In this document: positions 4,886 through 37,120 of the stretch, one piece after another
Layout: each line of letters opens with the position of its first letter
Position numbering within the stretch: the stretch's first letter is position 1
Origin: an uncultured Bacteroidia bacterium
Lineage (GTDB): Bacteria > Bacteroidota > Bacteroidia > Bacteroidales > F082
Direction of reading: 5' to 3'
Length of the DNA stretch: 44,096 bases
NCBI GenBank assembly: GCA_913009755.1
Contig: CAJVWU010000029.1
Location: 1-44,096, forward strand
The notes under the pieces: generated by a model
What the model was told of the DNA's origin: nothing
The model's database searches: none
Seen by the model: the letters and a program-made list of their open reading frames with translations, nothing else
Program-made: the position numbers and the translations under genes

Positions 4886-5119
4886 TTAAATGAATCGTTT
4901 TCGTATCGTGGCTTCCAATTCATAATCCAATTGGTCAATCGTTAAAAATCCGGTAGTGCCGTTTTCAATTTTTTCAAGTTCCTTGTTCAAATACTCCTGA
5001 ACAGAAAGGAATTCTTTGTCTTCACGGATTACCTGAAGCTCTTCCTTGTTAAACCGTTTGAGAAACCACATCAAATGGTGATAAATTTTATCATTAACCC
5101 GCAATCGAATGGTTTGCAT
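4886..5119 (-). CDS. Antitoxin-like 77-residue protein without a partner
   Basis: The protein starts MQTIRLRVNDKIYHHLMWFL. Its N-terminal beta strand followed by helices resembles the small ribbon-helix-helix-type antitoxins that Bacteroidota often pair with RelE/ParE toxins. The middle is helical and charged (FNKEELQVIREDKEFLSVQEYLNKELEKI). No toxin gene lies downstream on the minus strand, where the expected position (below 4886) holds only repeats. This may be an orphan antitoxin or a decayed toxin-antitoxin locus. The family assignment is inference from size and pattern. Confidence 0.55.
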   Translation of the reverse strand: MQTIRLRVNDKIYHHLMWFLKRFNKEELQVIREDKEFLSVQEYLNKELEKIENGTTGFLTIDQLDYELEATIRKRFI

Positions 5120-5788: not shown

Positions 5789-5894
5789 TGTTTTTCATCT
5801 TCAGGCAAAGCGACGAAGCAAAGGAGTCCTGATCAACCCTGCGGGGGTACTGCTTTTTATAGAAAATTTAACAGCCTTCCTTTCAAATTACCCT

Positions 5895-6211: not shown

Positions 6212-6520
6212 TCAGTCCGCTTCTTTTTTTATTTTTTCGACGATGATCTCATCCCCTTTACAGCCTGCTTTATTTTTTCTCCATTGCAGTTCCACATGAA
6301 GCGGGAAGCTTGCATTTTTTACATCGAGGGTGCTGCTCTCCGGCAAATCGTAAAACCTGTATGTTTTTTCCCCAATATCAATGAACCAACCTCCGCAACA
6401 GGCACACATGGAACGGTCGGGGCCGGTTATTGTCGCTTTCTGAAAACTTTTCACATCTTTCATCGAGCAGGAAGAAAAAACTATTGCCGAGAGAAAAAGG
6501 ATAAAAATGATTTTTTTCAT
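6212..6520 (-). CDS. Small lipoprotein of unknown function
   Basis: This 102-residue protein has a lipoprotein signal (MKKIIFILFLSAIVFSSCSM; lipobox FSSC, lipidated Cys18). The mature part has a CACCGGWFIDIG motif, three clustered Cys in total with Cys18 excluded, and a short beta-rich tail (YRFYDLP, FPLHVELQWRK). It probably sits in the periplasm-facing leaflet or the outer membrane. The cysteine pair could bind metal. No family is recognised. It is convergent with the NqrM-like gene 50 bp away. Confidence 0.75.
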   Translation of the reverse strand: MKKIIFILFLSAIVFSSCSMKDVKSFQKATITGPDRSMCACCGGWFIDIGEKTYRFYDLPESSTLDVKNASFPLHVELQWRKNKAGCKGDEIIVEKIKKEAD

Positions 6521-6540
6521 TAGTTTATAATTTTAAAATA

Positions 6541-6705
6541 AACCAAGCTCGTCTGGATCCCAAGCTCGTCCGGATTTGTAATCCGGACGTATTTATAACA
6601 ACGATTGTCATACAAGCCCAAGATCGTCCGGATTTGTAATCCGGACATATTAATAAGAACGATTGACATACAAGCTCTACCGGATTTTGTAATCCGGAAG
6701 AGCAA
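6541..6705. repeat. Cluster of REP-type palindromes
   Basis: Three palindromes lie in a row: GTCCGGATT TGTA AATCCGGAC-type hairpins at 6568-6588 and 6626-6646, and a longer one at 6674-6703 with extended arms GCTCT / AGAGC. They are separated by related spacers that share the motif ACGATTGNCATACAAGC. A degenerate partial unit lies at 6545-6560. Spacing is about 52-58 bp. Such GGATTTGTAATCC hairpins are common in Bacteroidota and resemble targets of REP-associated tyrosine transposases. No transposase is in the window. Confidence 0.75.
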
Positions 6706-6716
6706 TACCTAATGGA

Positions 6717-7304
6717 CTAATAATTCTTTTCCTGAATCTCGAAATAGGCCTGGGGATGCAGGCAGGCGGGGCAGGTCTTGGGTGCTTTTTTGCCCTCATG
6801 CAGGTAACCGCAGTTGCGGCATTTCCATACGAGTATGCCTTCGCGTTCAAATACCTTACCCTCTTCCAGGTTGCCGTATAACTTATTGTATCTTTCTTCA
6901 TGGGCTTTTTCCACACGAGCAATCATCCTGTAAGCCACGGCAATATCCTTAAAACCTTCTTCCTCGGCAATGTCGGCAAACATGGGGTACAATTCGGTCC
7001 ATTCTTCATTTTCACCTTCGGCAGCCGCTTTCAGGTTTTCGAGGGTCGTGCCGATTATGCCTGCAGGATAAGTAGCTGTGATCTCCACCGGGCCGCCTTC
7101 AAGAAATTTAAAGAACCGTTTGGCATGCTCTTTTTCATTGAGCGCCGTTTCGGCAAAAATGGCTGAAATTTGTTCCAGTCCCTCCTTTTTGGCTTGTTTC
7201 GAAAAATAATCATAACGCATCCTGGCCTGTGATTCACCGGCAAATGATTTTAAAAGATTCTGTTCTGTTTTGGTTCCTTTAATGCTTTTCATAAAATTTT
7301 TCAT
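6717..7304 (-). CDS. rbr: Rubrerythrin
   Basis: This 195-residue protein is the usual length for a rubrerythrin. The N-terminal ferritin-like four-helix domain carries the di-iron ligands Glu24, Glu57-x-x-His60 and Glu132-x-x-His135. The C-terminal rubredoxin domain binds one iron through Cys162, Cys165, Cys178 and Cys181 (WKCRNCGYLH, CPACLHP). It reduces hydrogen peroxide in the cytoplasm with electrons from rubredoxin-type donors. It is the last gene of the perR-like / flavin reductase-rubredoxin / rbr operon (31-bp gap), and the preceding gene product is a plausible electron donor. It is probably derepressed by peroxide through the PerR-like protein. Confidence 0.95.
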   Translation of the reverse strand: MKNFMKSIKGTKTEQNLLKSFAGESQARMRYDYFSKQAKKEGLEQISAIFAETALNEKEHAKRFFKFLEGGPVEITATYPAGIIGTTLENLKAAAEGENEEWTELYPMFADIAEEEGFKDIAVAYRMIARVEKAHEERYNKLYGNLEEGKVFEREGILVWKCRNCGYLHEGKKAPKTCPACLHPQAYFEIQEKNY

Positions 7305-7334
7305 TTAATGGGTTAACAATTTATTTTATTCCTT

Positions 7335-8033
7335 TTATTCTATTGTAAAATCTTCTTTTCCCGCACCGCAGATGGGACATTCCCAGTCATCGGGAAGGTC
7401 TTCGAAAGGCGTACCGGGCGGAATGCCGTTTTCAGGATCGCCTGCTTCCGGATCATATTCATAACCACAAAGATTGCAGGTATAAGTATCCATTTTTCCG
7501 GCGTTTTTTTCTTCACCTTCCTCCTCTTTTTTGATGTAGGTAGGCGCATTTTTCGGCGCAACGCCTTTTTTCACGGCATGATAATAGGCATAGGTCAGCG
7601 GTTCCGCCTCTTTATCCAGCAAATCATTATTTACAAGACGACCGATAAAAATAACATGGGTATCCAGTTCTATCTCCCTTTCCACTTCACATTCAAACCA
7701 GGCGATACAATCGTCCACAACGATTGGCGCACCCGTTTGGCCCGTAATGTAATTTGTATCTTTGAACTTATCGGTGTCGGCACTGCTGTGGTAGCCAAAC
7801 CTGCCGATAATTTCACGACTGCAATTCTGTTTCAGGATGGATATGGAAAAAGCTTTGCCCTGCCGGATGATGCCAACAGTGAAGTTATTTTTACTGCAAC
7901 TGACGGCAAACCTGGCCGGGTCGGCCGTTACCTGAAATGCCGTATTGGCCACATACCCGCTCAACTTATCCTCATACGCCGATGAGATAATGTACAAACC
8001 GTAAGTGATTTTAAAAAATGCTTCGATGTTCAT
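7335..8033 (-). CDS. Flavin reductase-rubredoxin fusion (high molecular weight rubredoxin type)
   Basis: This 232-residue protein has an N-terminal FMN-binding flavin-reductase-like domain (about 1-160, [26 protein letters not shown]). A short charged linker ([10 protein letters not shown]) leads to a C-terminal rubredoxin domain with Cys186, Cys189, Cys219 and Cys222 ([23 protein letters not shown]). The family passes electrons from NAD(P)H to flavodiiron proteins or rubrerythrins for O2, NO or peroxide reduction. No flavodiiron protein is in the window, so rubrerythrin immediately downstream is the likely partner. It lies 7 bp after the PerR-like gene, and the two are surely cotranscribed. 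Confidence 0.9.
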
Positions 8034-8040
8034 AGTGGGT

Positions 8041-8457
8041 TTATTTATCAGTAAATTTTCCCAATAATTTGATTTTTATATCGTCCGGTTCAAAGCCGGG
8101 GATTTTTTTATGCTGCACATATTGTTGGATCAGTTCAAAAAGCTCATCATCAAAATAATCTTCGATGCGGTTGGTATCAGCGTCATATAAATGATGGTGC
8201 TTTTCAAGCATGGCATCGTAACGCATCACATGGCCCGGAATATAAATTTTGGAAATAACCCCTTTCCCAATAAAGGTATCCAGAATATTATAAATAGTGC
8301 TTGCCGAAATACTGTTATGTTTTTTCCTGACCTTCCTGATGAGATATTCGGCCGTTGGGTGCTTGCTGTTGCTCAAAGCCAGCAATACTTCCAGCCGTTG
8401 TGGTGTCACCCTGAGGCCCGCATTCCGCAAACGTTCTTCTGCTGTTTTTTTATCCAT
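8041..8457 (-). CDS. Fur-family regulator, PerR type, lacking the structural zinc site
   Basis: This 138-residue protein has an N-terminal winged helix ([31 protein letters not shown]) and a C-terminal metal-binding domain. With a constant offset of four residues, all five regulatory ligands of Bacillus subtilis PerR are present: His33, Asp81, His87, His89 and Asp100. The Asp at the last position is the PerR rather than the Fur signature. The four cysteines of the structural zinc site are absent; there is no cysteine in the protein. It probably represses its own operon when metal-bound and releases DNA after peroxide oxidation of His33 or His87. Two tandem inverted repeats lie directly upstream. 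Confidence 0.85.
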
Positions 8458-8469
8458 TGAATTGAAATG

Positions 8470-8483
8470 TTCCTATTTAGGAA
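8470..8483. promoter_or_regulatory. Inverted-repeat operator, proximal copy
   Basis: TTCCTATTTAGGAA has 6-bp arms around TT. It lies 12 bp upstream of the PerR-like start codon and 17 bp (centre to centre) from an almost identical site. Both sit just downstream of a -7 element, the position expected for a repressor that blocks transcription. Binding by the PerR-like protein is an inference. Confidence 0.6.
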
Positions 8484-8486
8484 TTG

Positions 8487-8500
8487 CTCCTATTTAGGAG
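8487..8500. promoter_or_regulatory. Inverted-repeat operator, distal copy
   Basis: CTCCTATTTAGGAG has perfect 6-bp arms around TT and the same core as 8470-8483. It overlaps the expected transcription start, a few bases downstream of the -7 element at 8506-8513. A third copy of the CCTATTTAGG core is at 5550-5559. Confidence 0.6.
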
Positions 8501-8505
8501 AAGGA

Positions 8506-8513
8506 CAAAATTA
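8506..8513 (-). promoter_or_regulatory. -7 promoter element of the perR-like operon
   Basis: Read on the minus strand the bases are TAATTTTG, matching TAnnTTTG. It lies about 50 bp upstream of the ATG, with the two inverted repeats in between. No TTG lies at the usual -33 distance. Confidence 0.5.
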
Positions 8514-8571
8514 CGAAAAACAATCATTCGGAAAAATATCCGGCCAAGAAAAAAACAGAAAAAATGTTAAA

Positions 8572-9576
8572 TTATTTGAGCTCCTCTGTAATAATAGTTT
8601 TAAACCCTTTGGTTATATAGATTTGATTGGTACTGTCGGGGCGGGCATAAATAAAGAAGGCTTCGAGGGCTGAATCCTGTTCTACAAATTGTTTTGACTT
8701 CTCAAAACCCATCACCATAAAAGCCGTGGCATAGGCATCGGCAACGGCGGTGCTGTCGGCCAGCACGGAAACGCTCAGCAGTGAATGTTGTACAGGACGT
8801 CCTGTTTTGGGGTCAATAGTATGTGAATACCTGATGCCGTTTTCGATATAAAATTTGCGATAGCTGCCCGAGGTGGCCACCGATTTGTTTTTCAGGGCAA
8901 TTACAGCTTTCAGGCTACGCAGGTCGTCCTGATGTTTGGCCGGTTTCTCAATGCCAACTTTCCACAATGAACCGTCAGGTTTTTGTCCTTTGGCTTTTAC
9001 CTCTCCTCCTATATCCACGAGGTAATTTTCAATACCGTGCCTTTCAAGGAAATCGCCAACAAGATCAACCGAATACCCTTGGGCAATGGCATTAAAATCA
9101 AGTGATACACGGGGATCGTCCTTAACAATTATGCCATTTTGTATTTTAACTTTACGGTAGCCGGTAAATTGCAACAGCGAATCAATGATGTGGCTGTCAA
9201 CATGTTTTTTTTCATCAAAACCAAACCCCCAGGCCCTGACCAACGGACCAACCGTTACATCGAAAGCACCATTGGTGTTAGCAGCAACCTGCATGGATAA
9301 ATTAAAATTGTCCTCAAACGATTTGTCCGGCACTACCGATGTATCATTGTTATTTACCCTTGAAAGGATTGAACTGGGGATCCATAACGAAAGCGAACGG
9401 TCGAAGGCCTGAAGCAACGAATCAATCTCGGGTTGGAAATTGCGCCGGGCTTCATCGTAATAGATAATTGAATAATAAGTTCCCTGTGCCGCACCAAGCA
9501 GTTTAACAGGTTCTGTTTTTTTTTGAGGGGTACATGCAGAAAAAAACAACGCCAAAAGGAGAAAAACCCGATTCAT
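8572..9576 (-). CDS. apbE: FAD:protein FMN transferase (ApbE), lipoprotein
   Basis: This 334-residue protein has a lipoprotein signal (MNRVFLLLALFFSAC, lipidated Cys15) and the full ApbE fold. Visible family motifs are VSLDFNAIAQGYSVD, YLVDIGGEVKAKG, SVATSGSYRKF, YSHTIDPKTGRP and the metal-site region ADSTAVADAYATAFMVMG. It transfers FMN from FAD to a threonine in target proteins outside the inner membrane. The targets here are NqrB (Thr210) and NqrC (Thr220), encoded upstream on the same strand, so it belongs functionally, and probably transcriptionally, to the nqr operon. One 247-residue gene lies between nqrF and apbE. Confidence 0.95.
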   Translation of the reverse strand: MNRVFLLLALFFSACTPQKKTEPVKLLGAAQGTYYSIIYYDEARRNFQPEIDSLLQAFDRSLSLWIPSSILSRVNNNDTSVVPDKSFEDNFNLSMQVAANTNGAFDVTVGPLVRAWGFGFDEKKHVDSHIIDSLLQFTGYRKVKIQNGIIVKDDPRVSLDFNAIAQGYSVDLVGDFLERHGIENYLVDIGGEVKAKGQKPDGSLWKVGIEKPAKHQDDLRSLKAVIALKNKSVATSGSYRKFYIENGIRYSHTIDPKTGRPVQHSLLSVSVLADSTAVADAYATAFMVMGFEKSKQFVEQDSALEAFFIYARPDSTNQIYITKGFKTIITEELK

Positions 9577-9621
9577 CTTTTAATTTATTAAACAGTTTAT
9601 ACGATCTTCCTTATTTTCTTT

Positions 9622-10365
9622 TTAAAAACGGTATGACAAATTAAAAGAAAAAGCCACCACTGTTTTCACTACATCATTATTGTAAGGGGCGTCCGGAAAA
9701 TAGCGAATGCCCATGGCCAAAACAGCAGACAAACTCAATGCCTTAATTGGAGAGAAAACAACCCCGTTATTAACGAGAAGTTTACCATAAAAGGAGTCAG
9801 GATATTTGTAATAGTCATTACCGTCATAATATTCATCCTTACTATGCCCCATGCCAATCCGGATTCCGGGCCCCATGAAATACCGGATTATTCCCTGTCC
9901 TGTCGGATAAAAATTAAGGTTCAGTCCGGTGTAAAATGTATTGCTCATATCACCGAAACCCGAATTATTATCCGAATAACCAAATGAAACCGGAATATCA
10001 AAGCCGAGTTTACCGCTGCTTAATATCCGCTCATAAGAAATTGTAAAATTGTTTACCAACAGGTCGAACAAGTGATAAGTGATCAGGTTGTTTTTGTAAT
10101 TATAGTGATTGGCAAGTTTAGATCTATGCTGAAAAAGCCTGACTTTTCCGTTTTCGAATACTATTAAATCAATTTGATCGGGATCGGCTGAATAAACCTG
10201 CCCGTTATCCTCACCATAAGTCCGAAATTTTACTTCAGCATCATTAACCTGAATATCTTTAGCTGCGACCCTATGCTGATCGCGAAAGTAAATATAGTCC
10301 TGTGAAAAAAGCCCACAAGCAAAGAGGAGCAATAAAACAAGCAATGTGGTCCGGGTTTTTATCAT
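9622..10365 (-). CDS. Outer-membrane beta-barrel-like protein between nqrF and apbE
   Basis: The start at 10365 gives MIKTRTTLLVLLLLFACGLF, a clean signal peptide; the longer start at 10407 would put 14 extra residues before it. The mature protein opens with a short domain (about 22-80, YIYFRDQHRVAAKDIQVNDA, DQIDLIVFENGKVR) of a type often seen at the start of Bacteroidota secreted proteins. It continues with alternating amphipathic strands (FDIPVSFGY, TGLNLNFYPTG, MGPGIRIGMG) and ends in the aromatic residue of FSFNLSYRF, typical of outer-membrane barrels. The function is unknown. It lies 45 bp from apbE and 112 bp from nqrF, so cotranscription is likely. Confidence 0.75.
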   Translation of the reverse strand: MIKTRTTLLVLLLLFACGLFSQDYIYFRDQHRVAAKDIQVNDAEVKFRTYGEDNGQVYSADPDQIDLIVFENGKVRLFQHRSKLANHYNYKNNLITYHLFDLLVNNFTISYERILSSGKLGFDIPVSFGYSDNNSGFGDMSNTFYTGLNLNFYPTGQGIIRYFMGPGIRIGMGHSKDEYYDGNDYYKYPDSFYGKLLVNNGVVFSPIKALSLSAVLAMGIRYFPDAPYNNDVVKTVVAFSFNLSYRF

Positions 10366-10477
10366 TATCGTTTTATGTGAAAAAATAATATCATTTAAAA
10401 GAGACAATTTTCAGCCAAAATCGTTGCATTTAAAAAAAGCGCAATTCAATTTCTCAAATTACCATTTTATTGATTGA

Positions 10478-11740
10478 TTATCCGCCAAAATCGTCAAAAG
10501 CAATCATTTCTTCGGGCACGCCCAGGTCATCCAGCATTTTTTGCACGGCCGAATTCATCATGGGCGGCCCGCACAGGTAATATTCAATTTCTTCGGGTTC
10601 AGGATTATTCTTTAAATAATTATCATAGATCACCTGGTGGATAAACCCCGTGTAACCTTTCCAGTTGTCTTCGGGTTTGGGTTCTGACAACGCCACTTCA
10701 AACCTGAAATTAGGAAATTCCTTTTGTATCTTTTCAAAGTCTTCAATATAAAACAGTTCCCGCAATGAGCGGCCGCCATACCAGAATGTTGCTTTTCGTT
10801 TGGTATGTTTGGTAACAAACTGGTCAAAAATATGTGAGCGCATGGGTGCCATGCCTGCACCGCCACCAATGAACATCATTTCGCGATCGGTATCTTTAAT
10901 GAAAAACTCACCATAAGGCCCTGAGATGGTTACCTTGTCACCGGGCTTACGAGAGAAAACATACGATGAACAAATCCCCGGGTTCACTTTCATAAAACCA
11001 TTTCGTTTCCTGTCCCAGGGGGGGGTGGCAATCCTGATGTTGAGCATGACGATATTGCCTTCGGCAGGATGGTTAGCCATTGAATAAGCGCGGTAAATGG
11101 GTTCGGGATTTTTCATTTTCAAATCCCACATTTTAAATTTATCCCATTCGGCACGGTATTCTTCTTCAACATCAATATCTTTGAAATCCACCACAATCTT
11201 GGGCACATCAATCTGTATATACCCACCCGAACGGAAATTTAGTCTTTCGCCTTCGGGAAGCCTGACAACAAACTCCTTAATAAAAGTAGCCACATTGCGG
11301 TTTGACACCACTTCGCATTCCCATTTTTTAATCCCGAATATTTCAGGTGGCACACGGATATCCAACTCCTGTCGCACTTTCACCTGGCAGGCGAGGCGCC
11401 AGTGGTTCATTTGTTCTTTACGGGTGAAAAAACCGGTTTCGGTGGGCAAAATAGTCCCGGCACCTTCCAACACCTGGAGGCGGCACATGCCACAGGTTCC
11501 GCCGCCGCCACAAGCCGACGGGACAAAAATCTTTTGTGCCGATAACGTTGTAAGCAATGTATTACCGGGATCAACCTCAATTTCTTTTTCTTCGTTGATG
11601 TTGATCTTTACCTTCCCCTGCGGCATCAGTTTCTTGCGGGCAAAAAGCAAGATGGCAACAAGCAGAAGGGTGACGACAAGGAAAATGATAATGCTTGATA
11701 TTACGATGGTCCCTATTCCCATTTGCAGCAACAAAATCAT
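10478..11740 (-). CDS. nqrF: Na+-translocating NADH:quinone reductase subunit F
   Basis: This 420-residue protein is of family length. One N-terminal membrane helix (about 9-33) is followed by a [2Fe-2S] ferredoxin domain with Cys77, Cys83, Cys86 and Cys118 (SACGGGGTCGMC). The FAD-binding domain (RAYSMANHPAEG) comes next, then the NADH-binding domain (MMFIGGGAGMAPMRS, EYYLCGPPMM), ending in the conserved AFDDFGG. NqrF oxidises NADH on the cytoplasmic side and passes electrons through FAD and 2Fe-2S into the pump. It is the last nqr gene of the operon. Confidence 0.97.
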   Translation of the reverse strand: MILLLQMGIGTIVISSIIIFLVVTLLLVAILLFARKKLMPQGKVKININEEKEIEVDPGNTLLTTLSAQKIFVPSACGGGGTCGMCRLQVLEGAGTILPTETGFFTRKEQMNHWRLACQVKVRQELDIRVPPEIFGIKKWECEVVSNRNVATFIKEFVVRLPEGERLNFRSGGYIQIDVPKIVVDFKDIDVEEEYRAEWDKFKMWDLKMKNPEPIYRAYSMANHPAEGNIVMLNIRIATPPWDRKRNGFMKVNPGICSSYVFSRKPGDKVTISGPYGEFFIKDTDREMMFIGGGAGMAPMRSHIFDQFVTKHTKRKATFWYGGRSLRELFYIEDFEKIQKEFPNFRFEVALSEPKPEDNWKGYTGFIHQVIYDNYLKNNPEPEEIEYYLCGPPMMNSAVQKMLDDLGVPEEMIAFDDFGG

Positions 11741-28859: not shown

Positions 28860-30401
28860 ATGGAAATTTTAATATCTGTGGTCGTTGCTGTTGTCGGCCT
28901 TGCGTTAGGCAGTTTGCTCACAGCAACAGTGCTTAAAAAGCAAATCCTGGGAAAAAGCAGCGCACTGCTTGAAGAAGCCAAGGAAAAAGGGGAAGTGATC
29001 AAAAAAGAAAAAATCCTTCAGGCCAAAGAAAAATTCCTTCAGCTAAAAACCGAACATGAAAAGGTTATTGGTGAAAAAAACAATAACATTCAACGCGCCG
29101 AAAACAGGATCCGGCAAAGGGAGCAAAGCCTTTCGCAAAAACTGGAAGATGCCCAGCGTAAACAAAAAGAGCTTGACATTCTTAAAAATAACCTGAACAC
29201 CCAGCTTGATATCCTCGAAAAGAAACAAGTTGAAGTTGACCGTATGCACAGTGAACAGGTAAAACAACTGGAGAACATTTCCCATCTCTCGGCTGATGAT
29301 GCCAAAGAACAATTGATTGAATCGTTAAAAGAAGATGCCCAGGCAGATGCCATGGTATTTATCCGGGATATCGTTGATGAGGCCCACCTGACCGCCGAAC
29401 GGAAAGCCAAGAAAGTGATCATCGAAACCATTCAGCGGACGGCTGCCGAACATGCCATTGAAAATACCGTTACGGTTTTTAATATTGACAGCGACGAAAT
29501 CAAAGGGCGCATCATCGGACGCGAGGGCAGAAACATCAGAGCATTGGAGGCCATGACCGGCATTGAGATCATTATTGATGACAGCCCCGATGCCATTTTG
29601 TTATCCGGATTTGACCCGGTACGCAGGGAAATCACCCGGTTGTCGCTTCAAAAGCTTGTTTCCGACGGGCGTATCCATCCGGCACGCATTGAGGAGGTGG
29701 TGACCAAAACAAGGAAAGAAGTTGAACAGGAGATTATTGAAGTGGGAAAAAGAACGGTCATCGATCTGGGCATCCACAACATGCACCCCGAACTGATTAA
29801 GCTTGTGGGCACGATGAAATACCGCTCTTCTTACGGACAGAACCTGCTGGCCCATTCCATTGAAGTGGCCAACCTGAGCGCCACCATGGCCTCTGAACTG
29901 GGACTCAATCCCAAAAAAGCCAAACGGGCAGGCCTGTTGCACGATATGGGAAAAATTGCTGAGAATGAGACCGAACTGCCCCATGCCATCCTGGGAATGA
30001 AACTGGCCGAGAAGTACAAGGAAAAACCCGATGTGTGCAATGCCATCGGTGCCCATCACGATGAAGTTGAAATGGAAACGCTTATTGCACCCATTGTCCA
30101 GGTATGCGATGCCATATCAGGTGCACGGCCCGGCGCCCGGCGCGAAGTGGTGGAAGCTTACATTCAGCGTTTGAAAAATCTTGAAGAAATGGCCCTGACC
30201 TACCCCGGTGTGGTAAAGACTTATGCAATACAGGCAGGTCGCGAGTTGAGGGTAATTGTGGGGGCTGACAAGGTTTCTGATGCCGATGCCGATAAACTGT
30301 CATACGAACTTTCCCGAAAGATACAGGAAGAAATGACCTACCCGGGACAGATAAAAATTACCGTGATCAGGGAAACACGGGCAATTAATTACGCAAAATA
30401 A
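28860..30401 (+). CDS. rny: Ribonuclease Y
   Basis: This 513-residue protein is of the usual length. An N-terminal membrane anchor (about 3-24) is followed by a long coiled coil (30-190), a KH RNA-binding domain (about 205-265, [10 protein letters not shown]) and an HD phosphohydrolase domain (about 325-425; His332, His361-Asp362 in [12 protein letters not shown], and [12 protein letters not shown]). RNase Y starts mRNA decay at the inner membrane. It is followed by a strong terminator. Confidence 0.97.
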
Positions 30402-34725: not shown

Positions 34726-35448
34726 CTAACCGGATAAATACTTTTCTGCTGCTTTTATTTTCTCTTTCGTTCCCAGGTCGAACCAATATCCTGATGTGTT
34801 TGGCCAAGCCATGATCCGTTCTGTTTTTGCCATTTCCAGCCACGCATCAATGATGGAAAACCGGCCCGAAAAAGGCAGCTTTTCTGCAAATGCCGGACTT
34901 GAAAGGTAAATTCCACTGTATGCAAAGGTTGTGAAATTTTCAACCGGCTTATTTACCCATTTATAATTCTTGTTTTTCAGATCAGCCCATCCTGTCAGTT
35001 TCATTTCACCATCAAAAAGCAGGGCCCTGCCCGATTTTCGTTTTCTGACCACAAGGGTTGCCAACGCCCTGTTTTTTTGGTGAAAATCCAAAAGCGCTTT
35101 CAATTTAATGTCTGACAAGACATCCACATTATGGACAAGTACCGGTTCCGTGCCCCTGAAGAAATCCCCTGCTTTCCAAATGGCACCCCCCGTATCGAGC
35201 AATTCATCCCGTTCATCTGAAATTGTAATCTCCACGCCAAACCGATTGTTGTTTTCGATATAATCAATCACCTGTTGCCCGAAGTGGTGAACATTGACCA
35301 TAAACTTTTTAACACCTTGTTTTTTAAGCTGTTCAATTACTATCACGAGCATGGGAACCCCCTTCACATCCACCAGTGCTTTCGGTTTGTTCAAGGTAGT
35401 TCCTTTCAGTCGCGAGCCAAGCCCGGCAGCCAGTATCATTGCTTTCAT
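34726..35448 (-). CDS. MurU-like sugar-phosphate nucleotidyltransferase
   Basis: This 240-residue protein is a Rossmann-type nucleotidyltransferase with the signature AAGLGSRLKGTTLNKPKAL at the start, a variant of GxGTRxxPxTxxxPK. It has the metal-site Asp in PVLVHNVDVLSD and an acceptor region (AYSGIYLSSP...FSIIDAWLEMA). It resembles MurU, which makes UDP-MurNAc from MurNAc-1-phosphate. The adjacent upstream gene, an AmgK-like kinase, makes that substrate in the recycling pathway. A mannose- or glucose-1-phosphate enzyme cannot be excluded from sequence alone. Confidence 0.8.
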   Translation of the reverse strand: MKAMILAAGLGSRLKGTTLNKPKALVDVKGVPMLVIVIEQLKKQGVKKFMVNVHHFGQQVIDYIENNNRFGVEITISDERDELLDTGGAIWKAGDFFRGTEPVLVHNVDVLSDIKLKALLDFHQKNRALATLVVRKRKSGRALLFDGEMKLTGWADLKNKNYKWVNKPVENFTTFAYSGIYLSSPAFAEKLPFSGRFSIIDAWLEMAKTERIMAWPNTSGYWFDLGTKEKIKAAEKYLSG

Positions 35449-35680
35449 AGACTTTTATTCGGCTGTAACTTTCTTTTGGTAAAAATAAGGATATATATAA
35501 ACGGAAATCATGAACGGCATATTATTTGCCTTTCGGAAAACCTCGCGCCCAATGATAAATCATTGGTCTATGGTGTCTCCATCCCCTCGGGATGTGGGCG
35601 CTTCCTGAAGAGAAAGCATGAATATATAGCCGTGGAATTCATTCCCCGGCGATTGGGGGAGTAATGATACCCGAAAAATA
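35449..35680. repeat. Palindromic intergenic element between the kinase-RapZ fusion and the murU-like gene
   Basis: This element contains the perfect palindrome CCAATGATAAATCATTGG (about 35549-35566), a CATCCCCTCGGGATG hairpin (35579-35593) and flanking GAATTC / GGGGAAT-type repeats. Overlapping short ORFs on the plus strand are repeat products. It looks like a dispersed non-coding element inserted in or near the operon. A degenerate -7 (TATTTTTA, minus strand, near 35485) could serve the murU-like gene alone. Confidence 0.5.
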
Positions 35681-37120
35681 TTATAACGTTTTCTCCTTCT
35701 CTATCTGAATATGTTTCAACCTGACTTCAACCCGCCCGTTGTATTTAAGACTGATGAATTCCGCAAGCTGCCGGGCGCAGTAAACCGACCGGTGCTTGCC
35801 TCCCGTGCATCCGTAATTGACCTGTAAATGGGTGAAACCGCGTTCCAGGTATTTCCCAATACTTTGTTTGACCAATTGAAAGGTTCCGATCATGAACCGG
35901 TTCACTTCGCTTTTGTCCTGCAGGTATTCGATCACAGGCCGTTCCAGGCCCGTAAAATCCATTAATTCCTTTATCCGACCCGGGTTGGGCAATGCCCGGC
36001 AATCGAACACAAAACCGCCTCCGTTTTCAGTAATATCGGACGGATACCCTGTTTTTTTGTAAGAAAAGCTGTTGATACTGACGGTTAATTTTTCGGCAGG
36101 CAAATCCGGCTCGTCATATTGACTTAAACTGATGATTTGCACGAATATCCGGTGAAGTTGGGGATAGCTTTTTTCGATGGCCGAATCAGCAATAAGCGCT
36201 TTCAGGTTGCGGATCGCATAAGGGATGCTTCTTAAAAAATGGCCTTTTCGCTGGATCAGCCCCCTGAAGCCATAAGCGCCGAGAACCTGCATCAGCCGGA
36301 AGTAAACAAAGTCGGTAAAATATTTTTTAAATTGTGTGGATTGTCCCGGGACAGCCTGTTCCAGATGATCGAGGTAAAGCTGATAGAGTTCATTTTTGAA
36401 CGAGGGGCTTAATCCGGCCCGTGCCTGGTAAAGCAATGAAGCCAGATCATATTGCAAGGGCCCCCGCCTCCCGCCCTGAAAATCAATATACCAGGGCCGG
36501 TTTTCAAAGATCATGATGTTGCGGGTCTGGAAATCGCGATACTGAAAAAATCCCGTAGCGGCCTGAAGCAAACGGCTTGCCAGTGCCCCAAAGTCGTTTT
36601 CCAGTTCATGCTCGTCAAACAATAACTCGTGGGGTTTTACAAAATAATATTTGAAATAATTCAAATCCCAGAAAACAGAATCTTTATCAAAATCTTTAAC
36701 CGGATAGGCCGCTTCCATATCCAGCCCCCGGATACCTTCTGTCTGAAACCTTACCAAATCGCTAACCACCTGTCTGTAATAATCCTTTATCCGGTCATTC
36801 ATTCCGTTGATAACAAGGTCAAGCAAATTTATGTCGCCCAGGTCCTGCAACAAAAAATAGCGGAAGTTATCATCGTGCGCTAAAATCGCGGGAACCGGCA
36901 GTTCCAGTTTTTTAAAATGGTTGCTGAAAGTGAGCCAGGCTTTGTTCTCGTTAATATCAGGGTTAAAGGCGGCAATCAGGCTATTGAGTTCCTTTTCACG
37001 AAATGTTATCCTGAAATAACGGCGGTTTGAGCCGGAACCGGGTAATTCGCGAATAATTTCCGCATCGGGAAAATGATTTTTCCTTAACAGGCTTTCGATT
37101 ATTGAGGTATGGTTTTTCAA
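35681..37120 (-). CDS. AmgK-like sugar kinase fused to a RapZ C-terminal domain
   Basis: The first 330 residues of this 479-residue protein form an aminoglycoside-phosphotransferase-type kinase. It has a glycine loop (ELPGSGSNRRYFRI), a catalytic loop FFQYRDFQTRNIM (Asp196, Asn201) and the metal-binding WYIDFQGGRRGPLQYDLASL (Asp213). This is like AmgK, which phosphorylates the anomeric position of MurNAc/GlcNAc. Residues about 345-475 are the RapZ C-terminal domain (GGGFVFDCRALPNPG, VNYGCTGGKHRSVYCARQLA), which in Escherichia coli RapZ binds glucosamine-6-phosphate and small RNAs. The N-terminal P-loop ATPase of RapZ is absent. The downstream MurU-like enzyme fits peptidoglycan recycling. The RapZ-C role here is unknown; allosteric sensing is the simplest idea. 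Confidence 0.87.
   Translation of the reverse strand: MKNHTSIIESLLRKNHFPDAEIIRELPGSGSNRRYFRITFREKELNSLIAAFNPDINENKAWLTFSNHFKKLELPVPAILAHDDNFRYFLLQDLGDINLLDLVINGMNDRIKDYYRQVVSDLVRFQTEGIRGLDMEAAYPVKDFDKDSVFWDLNYFKYYFVKPHELLFDEHELENDFGALASRLLQAATGFFQYRDFQTRNIMIFENRPWYIDFQGGRRGPLQYDLASLLYQARAGLSPSFKNELYQLYLDHLEQAVPGQSTQFKKYFTDFVYFRLMQVLGAYGFRGLIQRKGHFLRSIPYAIRNLKALIADSAIEKSYPQLHRIFVQIISLSQYDEPDLPAEKLTVSINSFSYKKTGYPSDITENGGGFVFDCRALPNPGRIKELMDFTGLERPVIEYLQDKSEVNRFMIGTFQLVKQSIGKYLERGFTHLQVNYGCTGGKHRSVYCARQLAEFISLKYNGRVEVRLKHIQIEKEKTL

Follow-up and report, generated by a model that had tools for sequence, protein, structure and literature searches.

Salvage of N-acetylmuramic acid (MurNAc) through the kinase AnmK yields MurNAc-6-phosphate, and in a cell without the etherase MurQ this product has to lose its phosphate before it can serve a 1-kinase as substrate. 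In the Pseudomonas-type route (AnmK-MupP-AmgK-MurU) the phosphatase is MupP, a HAD-type enzyme. AmgK and MurU of Tannerella forsythia, a member of the Bacteroidota, are described as permitting labelling with MurNAc probes when expressed in Escherichia coli (PMC13041923), and T. forsythia is reported to be without AnmK and to have MurK and MurQ (PMC7670621). A MupP homologue of Caulobacter is listed as a phosphoglycolate phosphatase (PMC13046382), and the molecular role of YvcJ, the Bacillus homologue of RapZ, is described as uncharacterised (PMC10216114). Here we analyse a 44,096-nucleotide stretch of DNA from an uncultured Bacteroidia bacterium (Bacteroidales; F082; GenBank assembly GCA_913009755.1, contig CAJVWU010000029.1, positions 1 to 44,096; hereafter the window), in which a single gene joins an AmgK-like kinase to the C-terminal domain of RapZ (RapZ-C) beside a gene for a MurU-like enzyme. 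Judging from sequence and predicted structure, we tentatively favour the idea that the fusion is a bifunctional 6-phosphatase/1-kinase in MurNAc salvage.

The first-pass annotation of the window had called the fusion and its MurU-like neighbour, and both were borne out. A single open reading frame of 479 amino acids (35681-37120, minus strand) encodes the fusion, with the Pfam matches and the best NCBIfam matches in agreement; its putative start is TTG, the first ATG, GTG or TTG past an in-frame stop ten codons upstream. The AmgK-like part, a putative anomeric amino-sugar kinase, covers about residues 1-330, the linker about residues 331-343 (predicted confidence, pLDDT, below 50 at 338-341) and RapZ-C residues 344-479 (35681-36091, minus strand, stop codon included). 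Pfam placed APH at residues 23-253 (E 9e-11) and PapZ_C (PF22740) at residues 346-471 (E 1.6e-29, 103 bits against a cut-off of 27). The top NCBIfam matches were RapZ (residues 311-467, E 1e-26) and two AmgK models (E 1.6e-21 and 9e-12), all three far under their equivalog cut-offs; because the AmgK cut-offs were missed (76.8 and 44.9 bits against 550 or 500), we call the kinase AmgK-like rather than AmgK. The nearest solved structure to the kinase half was 3csv (Z 28.8, residues 3-336), and comparison with an N-acetylhexosamine 1-kinase with N-acetylglucosamine (4ocu) gave Z 19.9. The catalytic Asp196, Asn201 and Asp213 and the RapZ-C motif GCTGGKHRSVY (residues 437-447) had been named exactly in the annotation; the three catalytic residues are unchanged across 37 aligned fusions, all of which are matched by both AmgK models. 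Adjoining the fusion on its 3' side is the MurU-like sugar-1-phosphate nucleotidyltransferase (34726-35448, minus strand; 240 amino acids; PF00483, E 5e-21). Its best match among 45 NCBIfam families was MurU (NF045761, E 3e-35), at 122 bits against an equivalog cut-off of 250.

A search for the fusion over Bacteroidota, as the annotation had suggested, showed that it recurs widely. We used a profile search for PF22740 on 395 Bacteroidota genomes, the window genome counted, and found RapZ-C in 49, always as a single match. The two halves were fused in 37 of these (window counted), encoded by neighbouring genes in 8 and separated in 4, in which the kinase lay on a different contig or at a distance of over 500 kb. 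A MurU-like gene followed 30 of the 37 fusions (window counted) on the same strand within 420 bp, measured between stop-to-stop frames; at 7 of the 36 non-window fusion loci none was seen within the fetched 8.7-13 kb. A wider scan of bacterial and archaeal genome contigs gave at least 589 relatives, and 79 of the best 80 of these, taken as named loci, were one-frame fusions. The remaining one, from a Calditrichaceae genome (L128), has an in-frame stop between the halves, around 4913-4915. A MurU-like frame was present in 65 of the best 80 loci, some of which are short, and in 56 of these it lay -150 to +500 bp downstream. Holders of the fusion among the 80 include Bacteroides timonensis, Mediterranea massiliensis, Parabacteroides chinchillae, Phocaeicola coprophilus, Mariniphaga anaerophila, Labilibaculum filiforme and Alkalitalea saponilacus, as well as bins labelled Elusimicrobia, Calditrichia, Ignavibacteria, Neomarinimicrobiota and Delongbacteria. 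Its presence in 37 of 49 RapZ-C genomes and 79 of the best 80 loci marks the fusion as a conserved architecture and not an assembly artefact. MurU apart, each neighbour was shared by at most 8 of the 48 fetched loci, and the neighbour groups shared by 7-8 loci look like synteny among close relatives. The fusion is a variant of a known salvage pathway and is undescribed within the literature searched, no description having turned up among the papers listed by an open-licence search.

RapZ-C was always accompanied by the kinase. When the kinase profile (A4) was run over the 395 genomes, close matches (E<1e-70) occurred in 50, namely every one of the 49 RapZ-C genomes and one other, G009, so that no RapZ-C was found without an AmgK-like kinase. 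A distant kinase (E 1e-32 to 1e-46) without RapZ-C was present in 84 genomes, all from one family of 86 genomes, f19. Matches in G109, G203 and G345 (E 3e-5 to 8e-4), which have AnmK and no RapZ-C, were set aside, being taken for unrelated APH proteins. In a maximum-likelihood tree of 55 kinases with f19 as outgroup, a clade with separate genes, f6, was nested among fused rows (support for the 20-row branch 100/97), and a kinase split from its RapZ-C by an in-frame stop around 5799-5801 (L068, genome G031) was sister to a fusion (support 100/97). Because these separate forms are nested among fusions, fusion came first in f6 and L068 and the split later; firm placement was lacking for the other genomes with RapZ-C elsewhere and for the window row, a long branch. 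RapZ-C was retained after the split in both cases, as would be expected of an enzyme or of a partner acting in trans. The stop lies exactly between the two halves in both L068 and L128, which may be two separate split fusions or sequence errors.

A C-x5-R-[ST] loop between a strand and a helix is the signature of cysteine phosphatases. The RapZ-C loop CTGGKHRS (residues 438-445; 35786-35809, minus strand) fits the C-x5-R-S form of this signature, as does CTGGxHRS in all 49 Bacteroidota RapZ-C, with C, T, G, G, H, R and S invariant. The annotation had proposed looking for conservation of the RapZ-C ligand residues across fusions, and this held for the pocket with one exception. Pocket residues C438, T439, G440, H443, R444, S445, D373, R375, N379 and H470 of the fusion are kept in 49/49, and the positions corresponding to E. 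coli RapZ D182, R184, N188, C247, T248, G249, G250, H252, R253, S254, V255 and H276 are likewise unchanged, but the position of His190 is Gly in 49/49 and in 80/80 of the best named loci. The pattern GC..G..RS was matched in 79 of those 80. The one locus with the loop Arg replaced (CTGGQHHS) is L115, from a Saprospiraceae bin; its site may be inactive, or the change may be a sequence error. The AlphaFold2 model of the RapZ-C domain (pLDDT 92.4) matched E. coli RapZ with a VIA Z score of 20.7, and for the C-terminal part of the fusion the nearest solved structure was the E. coli RapZ C-terminal domain (RapZ-CTD), with Z 20.5. In the domain model, C104 (C438 of the fusion) ends a strand (97-104) and R110 (R444) starts a helix (110-126), with the same arrangement predicted in the full-length model.

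What has been published on E. coli RapZ fits an active site, by analogy. Its pocket is described as binding sulphate or malonate through the backbone of T248/G249 and through H190, H252 and R253 (PMC5737377). C247A and C247S are each reported to abolish activity, the authors suggesting a possible catalytic role for the thiol, and a crystal containing glucosamine-6-phosphate (GlcN6P) is described as likely showing a 'chemically transformed product' (PMC9841335). YvcJ is reported to have NTPase and phosphatase activities, attributed to the protein as a whole (PMC7525490). The C-x5-R motif was not found named for RapZ in the excerpts of these papers or among the papers listed by an open-licence literature search. 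HpaP, a protein cited alongside YvcJ, reportedly appears in a title that includes 'ATPase and phosphatase activity'. Together, the faithful pairing with the kinase and the active-site-like look of the domain lead us to conclude that RapZ-C probably has a part in recycling chemistry or its control, not in RNA binding.

To place the fusion in a pathway, we scored the salvage genes of the same 395 genomes. MurQ was taken as present when the best match to TIGR00274 was E<1e-40, weaker matches (1e-4 to 1e-12) being taken as other SIS proteins, and AnmK was scored as present in G216 on a match of E 1e-10. AnmK was found in the window genome (7.9e-66) and a MurQ ortholog was not (best 1e-7), so its MurNAc-6-phosphate needs a phosphatase. 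MurQ was missing from 31 of the 309 genomes outside f19 (29 RapZ-C genomes, G009 and G381) and from all 86 within it, and the kinase was present in 30 of those 31 and in 84 of those 86. Its near-universal presence in MurQ-less genomes supports a salvage role for the kinase, by which MurQ would be bypassed. The combination of AnmK present and MurQ missing occurred in 16 of the 49 RapZ-C genomes, the window genome included, against a single genome, G381, outside them. Fisher tests on the gene-content counts take no account of kinship among the genomes, and their p values were given no weight. Conversely, the 85 kinase genomes without RapZ-C (G009 and 84 from f19) have neither AnmK nor MurQ. In all 8 f19 genomes searched, the exo-muramidase NamZ was encoded no more than about 2 kb from the kinase; at one such locus (L195, genome G063; 6298-10851) the AmgK-like kinase, a MurU-like enzyme of 310 amino acids with a C-terminal hexapeptide part, NamZ and an SSF symporter stand in a row with no RapZ-C. 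This cluster may be an import and salvage route for free MurNAc, which would need no phosphatase. NamZ presence was rejected as a discriminator, being found in 47 of 49 RapZ-C genomes and in 66 of 70 searched.

The PF01869 family, to which the MurNAc 6-kinase of T. forsythia (MurK) is described as belonging (PMC5790795), was represented in the 17 RapZ-C genomes that are missing AnmK: matches were strong and MurK-sized in 13 and weak in 3, and in the last, G351, they fell only in a very long frame, none being MurK-sized. The 8 f19 genomes tested gave at most E 3e-4. In G009 (2.4 Mb), which has the kinase and MurU, no match was found to RapZ-C, AnmK, MurQ proper, NamZ or PF01869. If a PF01869 match means a 6-kinase, this distribution is suggestive of RapZ-C tracking the capacity for making 6-phosphates.

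From the architecture of the fusion, its conservation, the co-occurrence pattern and the fission history we infer the following chemistry. RapZ-C would be a cysteine (C-x5-R) phosphatase of 6-phosphorylated amino sugars. AnmK or a MurK-type kinase would make MurNAc-6-phosphate and RapZ-C would take its phosphate off, after which the kinase half would phosphorylate the released MurNAc at C1 and MurU would convert the resulting MurNAc-1-phosphate to UDP-MurNAc. RapZ-C would thus fill the place held by the phosphatase MupP in Pseudomonas.

Several observations weigh against this proposal. In the domain itself, no general acid has been assigned, and the residue preceding the loop Cys is Gly in 49/49. 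The classical protein tyrosine phosphatase form is given as HC-x5-R (PMC6355987), and because this His is Gly we do not class RapZ-C as a classical protein tyrosine phosphatase. The VIA match of RapZ-C to a phosphatase (3s4o; Z 6.1, rmsd 3.7, 99 aligned residues) did not surpass that to a phosphofructokinase (4xyk; Z 7.1), and both, like the Foldseek listings of such proteins, fell in the chance range; a RapZ-C profile run against solved structures returned RapZ and then only two matches at E 0.2-0.4. E. coli RapZ-C is described as a binder of GlcN6P with a dissociation constant (KD) of 10 nM, and hydrolysis is not reported in the excerpts of that paper (PMC7073468). Gene content is also imperfectly aligned with the proposal. 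MurQ is retained in 20 of the 49 RapZ-C genomes, and the kinase genomes without RapZ-C, G009 and f19, amount to just two lineages. AnmK is missing from 17 of the 49 and from 14 of 30 named fusion genomes of unstated completeness, covering 30 of the best 80 loci and including Bacteroides, Parabacteroides and Phocaeicola, and on these counts the simple rule that RapZ-C goes with AnmK failed. Strong PF01869 matches also occurred in 4 of 12 control genomes that have neither the kinase nor RapZ-C, and the family covers other sugar kinases. Finally, the step could be carried out by a HAD phosphatase: TIGR01449, a HAD model, matched 39 of 39 genomes, above its cut-off in none of them and in only 1 of 14 controls, a result that neither finds nor excludes MupP.

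The closest competitor, which we consider quite possible, is that RapZ-C is a ligand sensor for GlcN6P or for another 6-phospho or UDP amino sugar, switching the kinase up or down and so matching salvage to supply. The isolated E. coli domain binds GlcN6P at the affinity given above, full-length RapZ is reported to be unresponsive to glucosamine or glucose-6-phosphate (PMC7073468), and a fused sensor domain is a familiar design. The pairing with the kinase in 49/49 and the invariance of the pocket apart from His190 are equally at home with a sensor. His190 itself, however, is described as required for RapZ function in E. coli (PMC9841335), and this essential pocket residue is the one replaced throughout. 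The linker varies from 3 to 47 amino acids between aligned ends (median 18.5, 36 fusions) and is modelled at low confidence, and the predicted template modelling score (pTM) fell from 0.87 for the domain to 0.71 for the whole protein; the models thus predict no fixed interface between the halves. RapZ-C also persists when it is encoded apart from the kinase, including the 4 genomes in which the two are non-adjacent. Because of the C-x5-R-S loop and of this persistence as a separate gene, we rate a catalytic role slightly higher than a sensor acting on the kinase. The two ideas are compatible, as a slow phosphatase can resemble a sensor.

It is unlikely that RapZ-C is purely structural, dimerising the kinase or binding MurU, with the pocket as a relic. 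E. coli RapZ-CTD is described as a dimer (PMC5737377), and the MurU-like gene adjoins 30 of 37 fusions, but conservation of the polar pocket (C, H, R, S, D, R, N and H in 49/49) is unexpected for a relic, and MurU was out of sight at the 7 loci mentioned above. We regard it as very improbable that RapZ-C binds RNA and controls amino-sugar genes in the E. coli manner: although the RNA-facing K170 position is K/R in 47/49 and the R196 position basic in 43/49, and the window genome encodes RNase E/G, E. coli K194, R211, R238, K270 and the tail K281-R282-K283 are not conserved, K251 is Gln in 47/49 (but Lys in the window), no GlmZ was found in the window genome (with E. coli positive as a control) and no Rfam match in the window, and the RNA-binding tail is described as restricted to Enterobacteriaceae (PMC7073468). 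The suggestion of the first-pass annotation that this might be an RNA-independent use of RapZ-C therefore stands as far as the poor conservation of most RNA-contact and tail residues and the missing GlmZ go, and is tempered by the mostly basic K170 and R196 positions. Its argument that the window encodes RNase Y and not RNase E fell away. RNase Y is indeed present (28860-30401, plus strand), but it is uninformative because the same genome also has RNase E/G, at L205 (G000, contig C60).

Other features of the locus are less regular. The spacer between the fusion and the MurU-like gene (35449-35680, minus strand) is 232 bp, long for this gene pair: in most relatives the two genes overlap or nearly touch, with gaps of -81 to +417 bp at 29 other fused loci and of less than 102 bp at 26 of them (stop-to-stop frames). 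Neither a repeat nor an Rfam match was found in the spacer. Further downstream, on the strand of the MurU-like gene, the window encodes a 951-amino-acid protein with a C-terminal PD-(D/E)XK nuclease domain (PF12705; 31761-34616).

If the 6-phosphatase/1-kinase proposal is true, one protein would, for a single ATP, in effect shift a phosphate from C6 to C1. RapZ-C ranges from E. coli to Bacillus, and partnership with the kinase places the domain in a pathway and narrows its candidate substrates to a few. With the fusion, the structural hint from E. coli, an essential Cys and a transformed ligand, can be tested directly on a single purified protein. The fusion is also relevant to the way in which many gut and environmental Bacteroidota reuse MurNAc in the absence of MurQ. 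A broader version, which we hold to be rather doubtful, is that RapZ-C across bacteria is an unrecognised cysteine (C-x5-R) phosphatase of 6-phospho amino sugars; it would then be the missing MurNAc-6-phosphate phosphatase in Bacteroidota, and RNA binding by the E. coli small-RNA adaptor would have been built on the active site of a phosphosugar enzyme.

Compared with known systems, the fusion resembles RapZ and YvcJ in its C-terminal domain, fold and C-x5-R-S pocket. It differs in carrying a kinase in place of the N-terminal P-loop domain, in the Gly at His190 and in the lack of a conserved RNA-binding tail; the P-loop domain (PF03668) had no match in the window genome, the only Bacteroidota genome searched for it, and matched in 6 of 14 control genomes. 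With AmgK of the Pseudomonas-type route it shares the kinase fold, the catalytic residues, mostly a MurU-like gene next door and presence in most MurQ-less genomes, but it falls far below the AmgK cut-off (76.8 bits against 550) and has RapZ-C added. Like AmgK and MurU of T. forsythia, the genes described here form a Bacteroidota pair, and a bin of Tannerella sp. (L122) has the fusion itself. With MupP, RapZ-C would share the proposed reaction and the place in the pathway; unlike MupP, it would use a cysteine.

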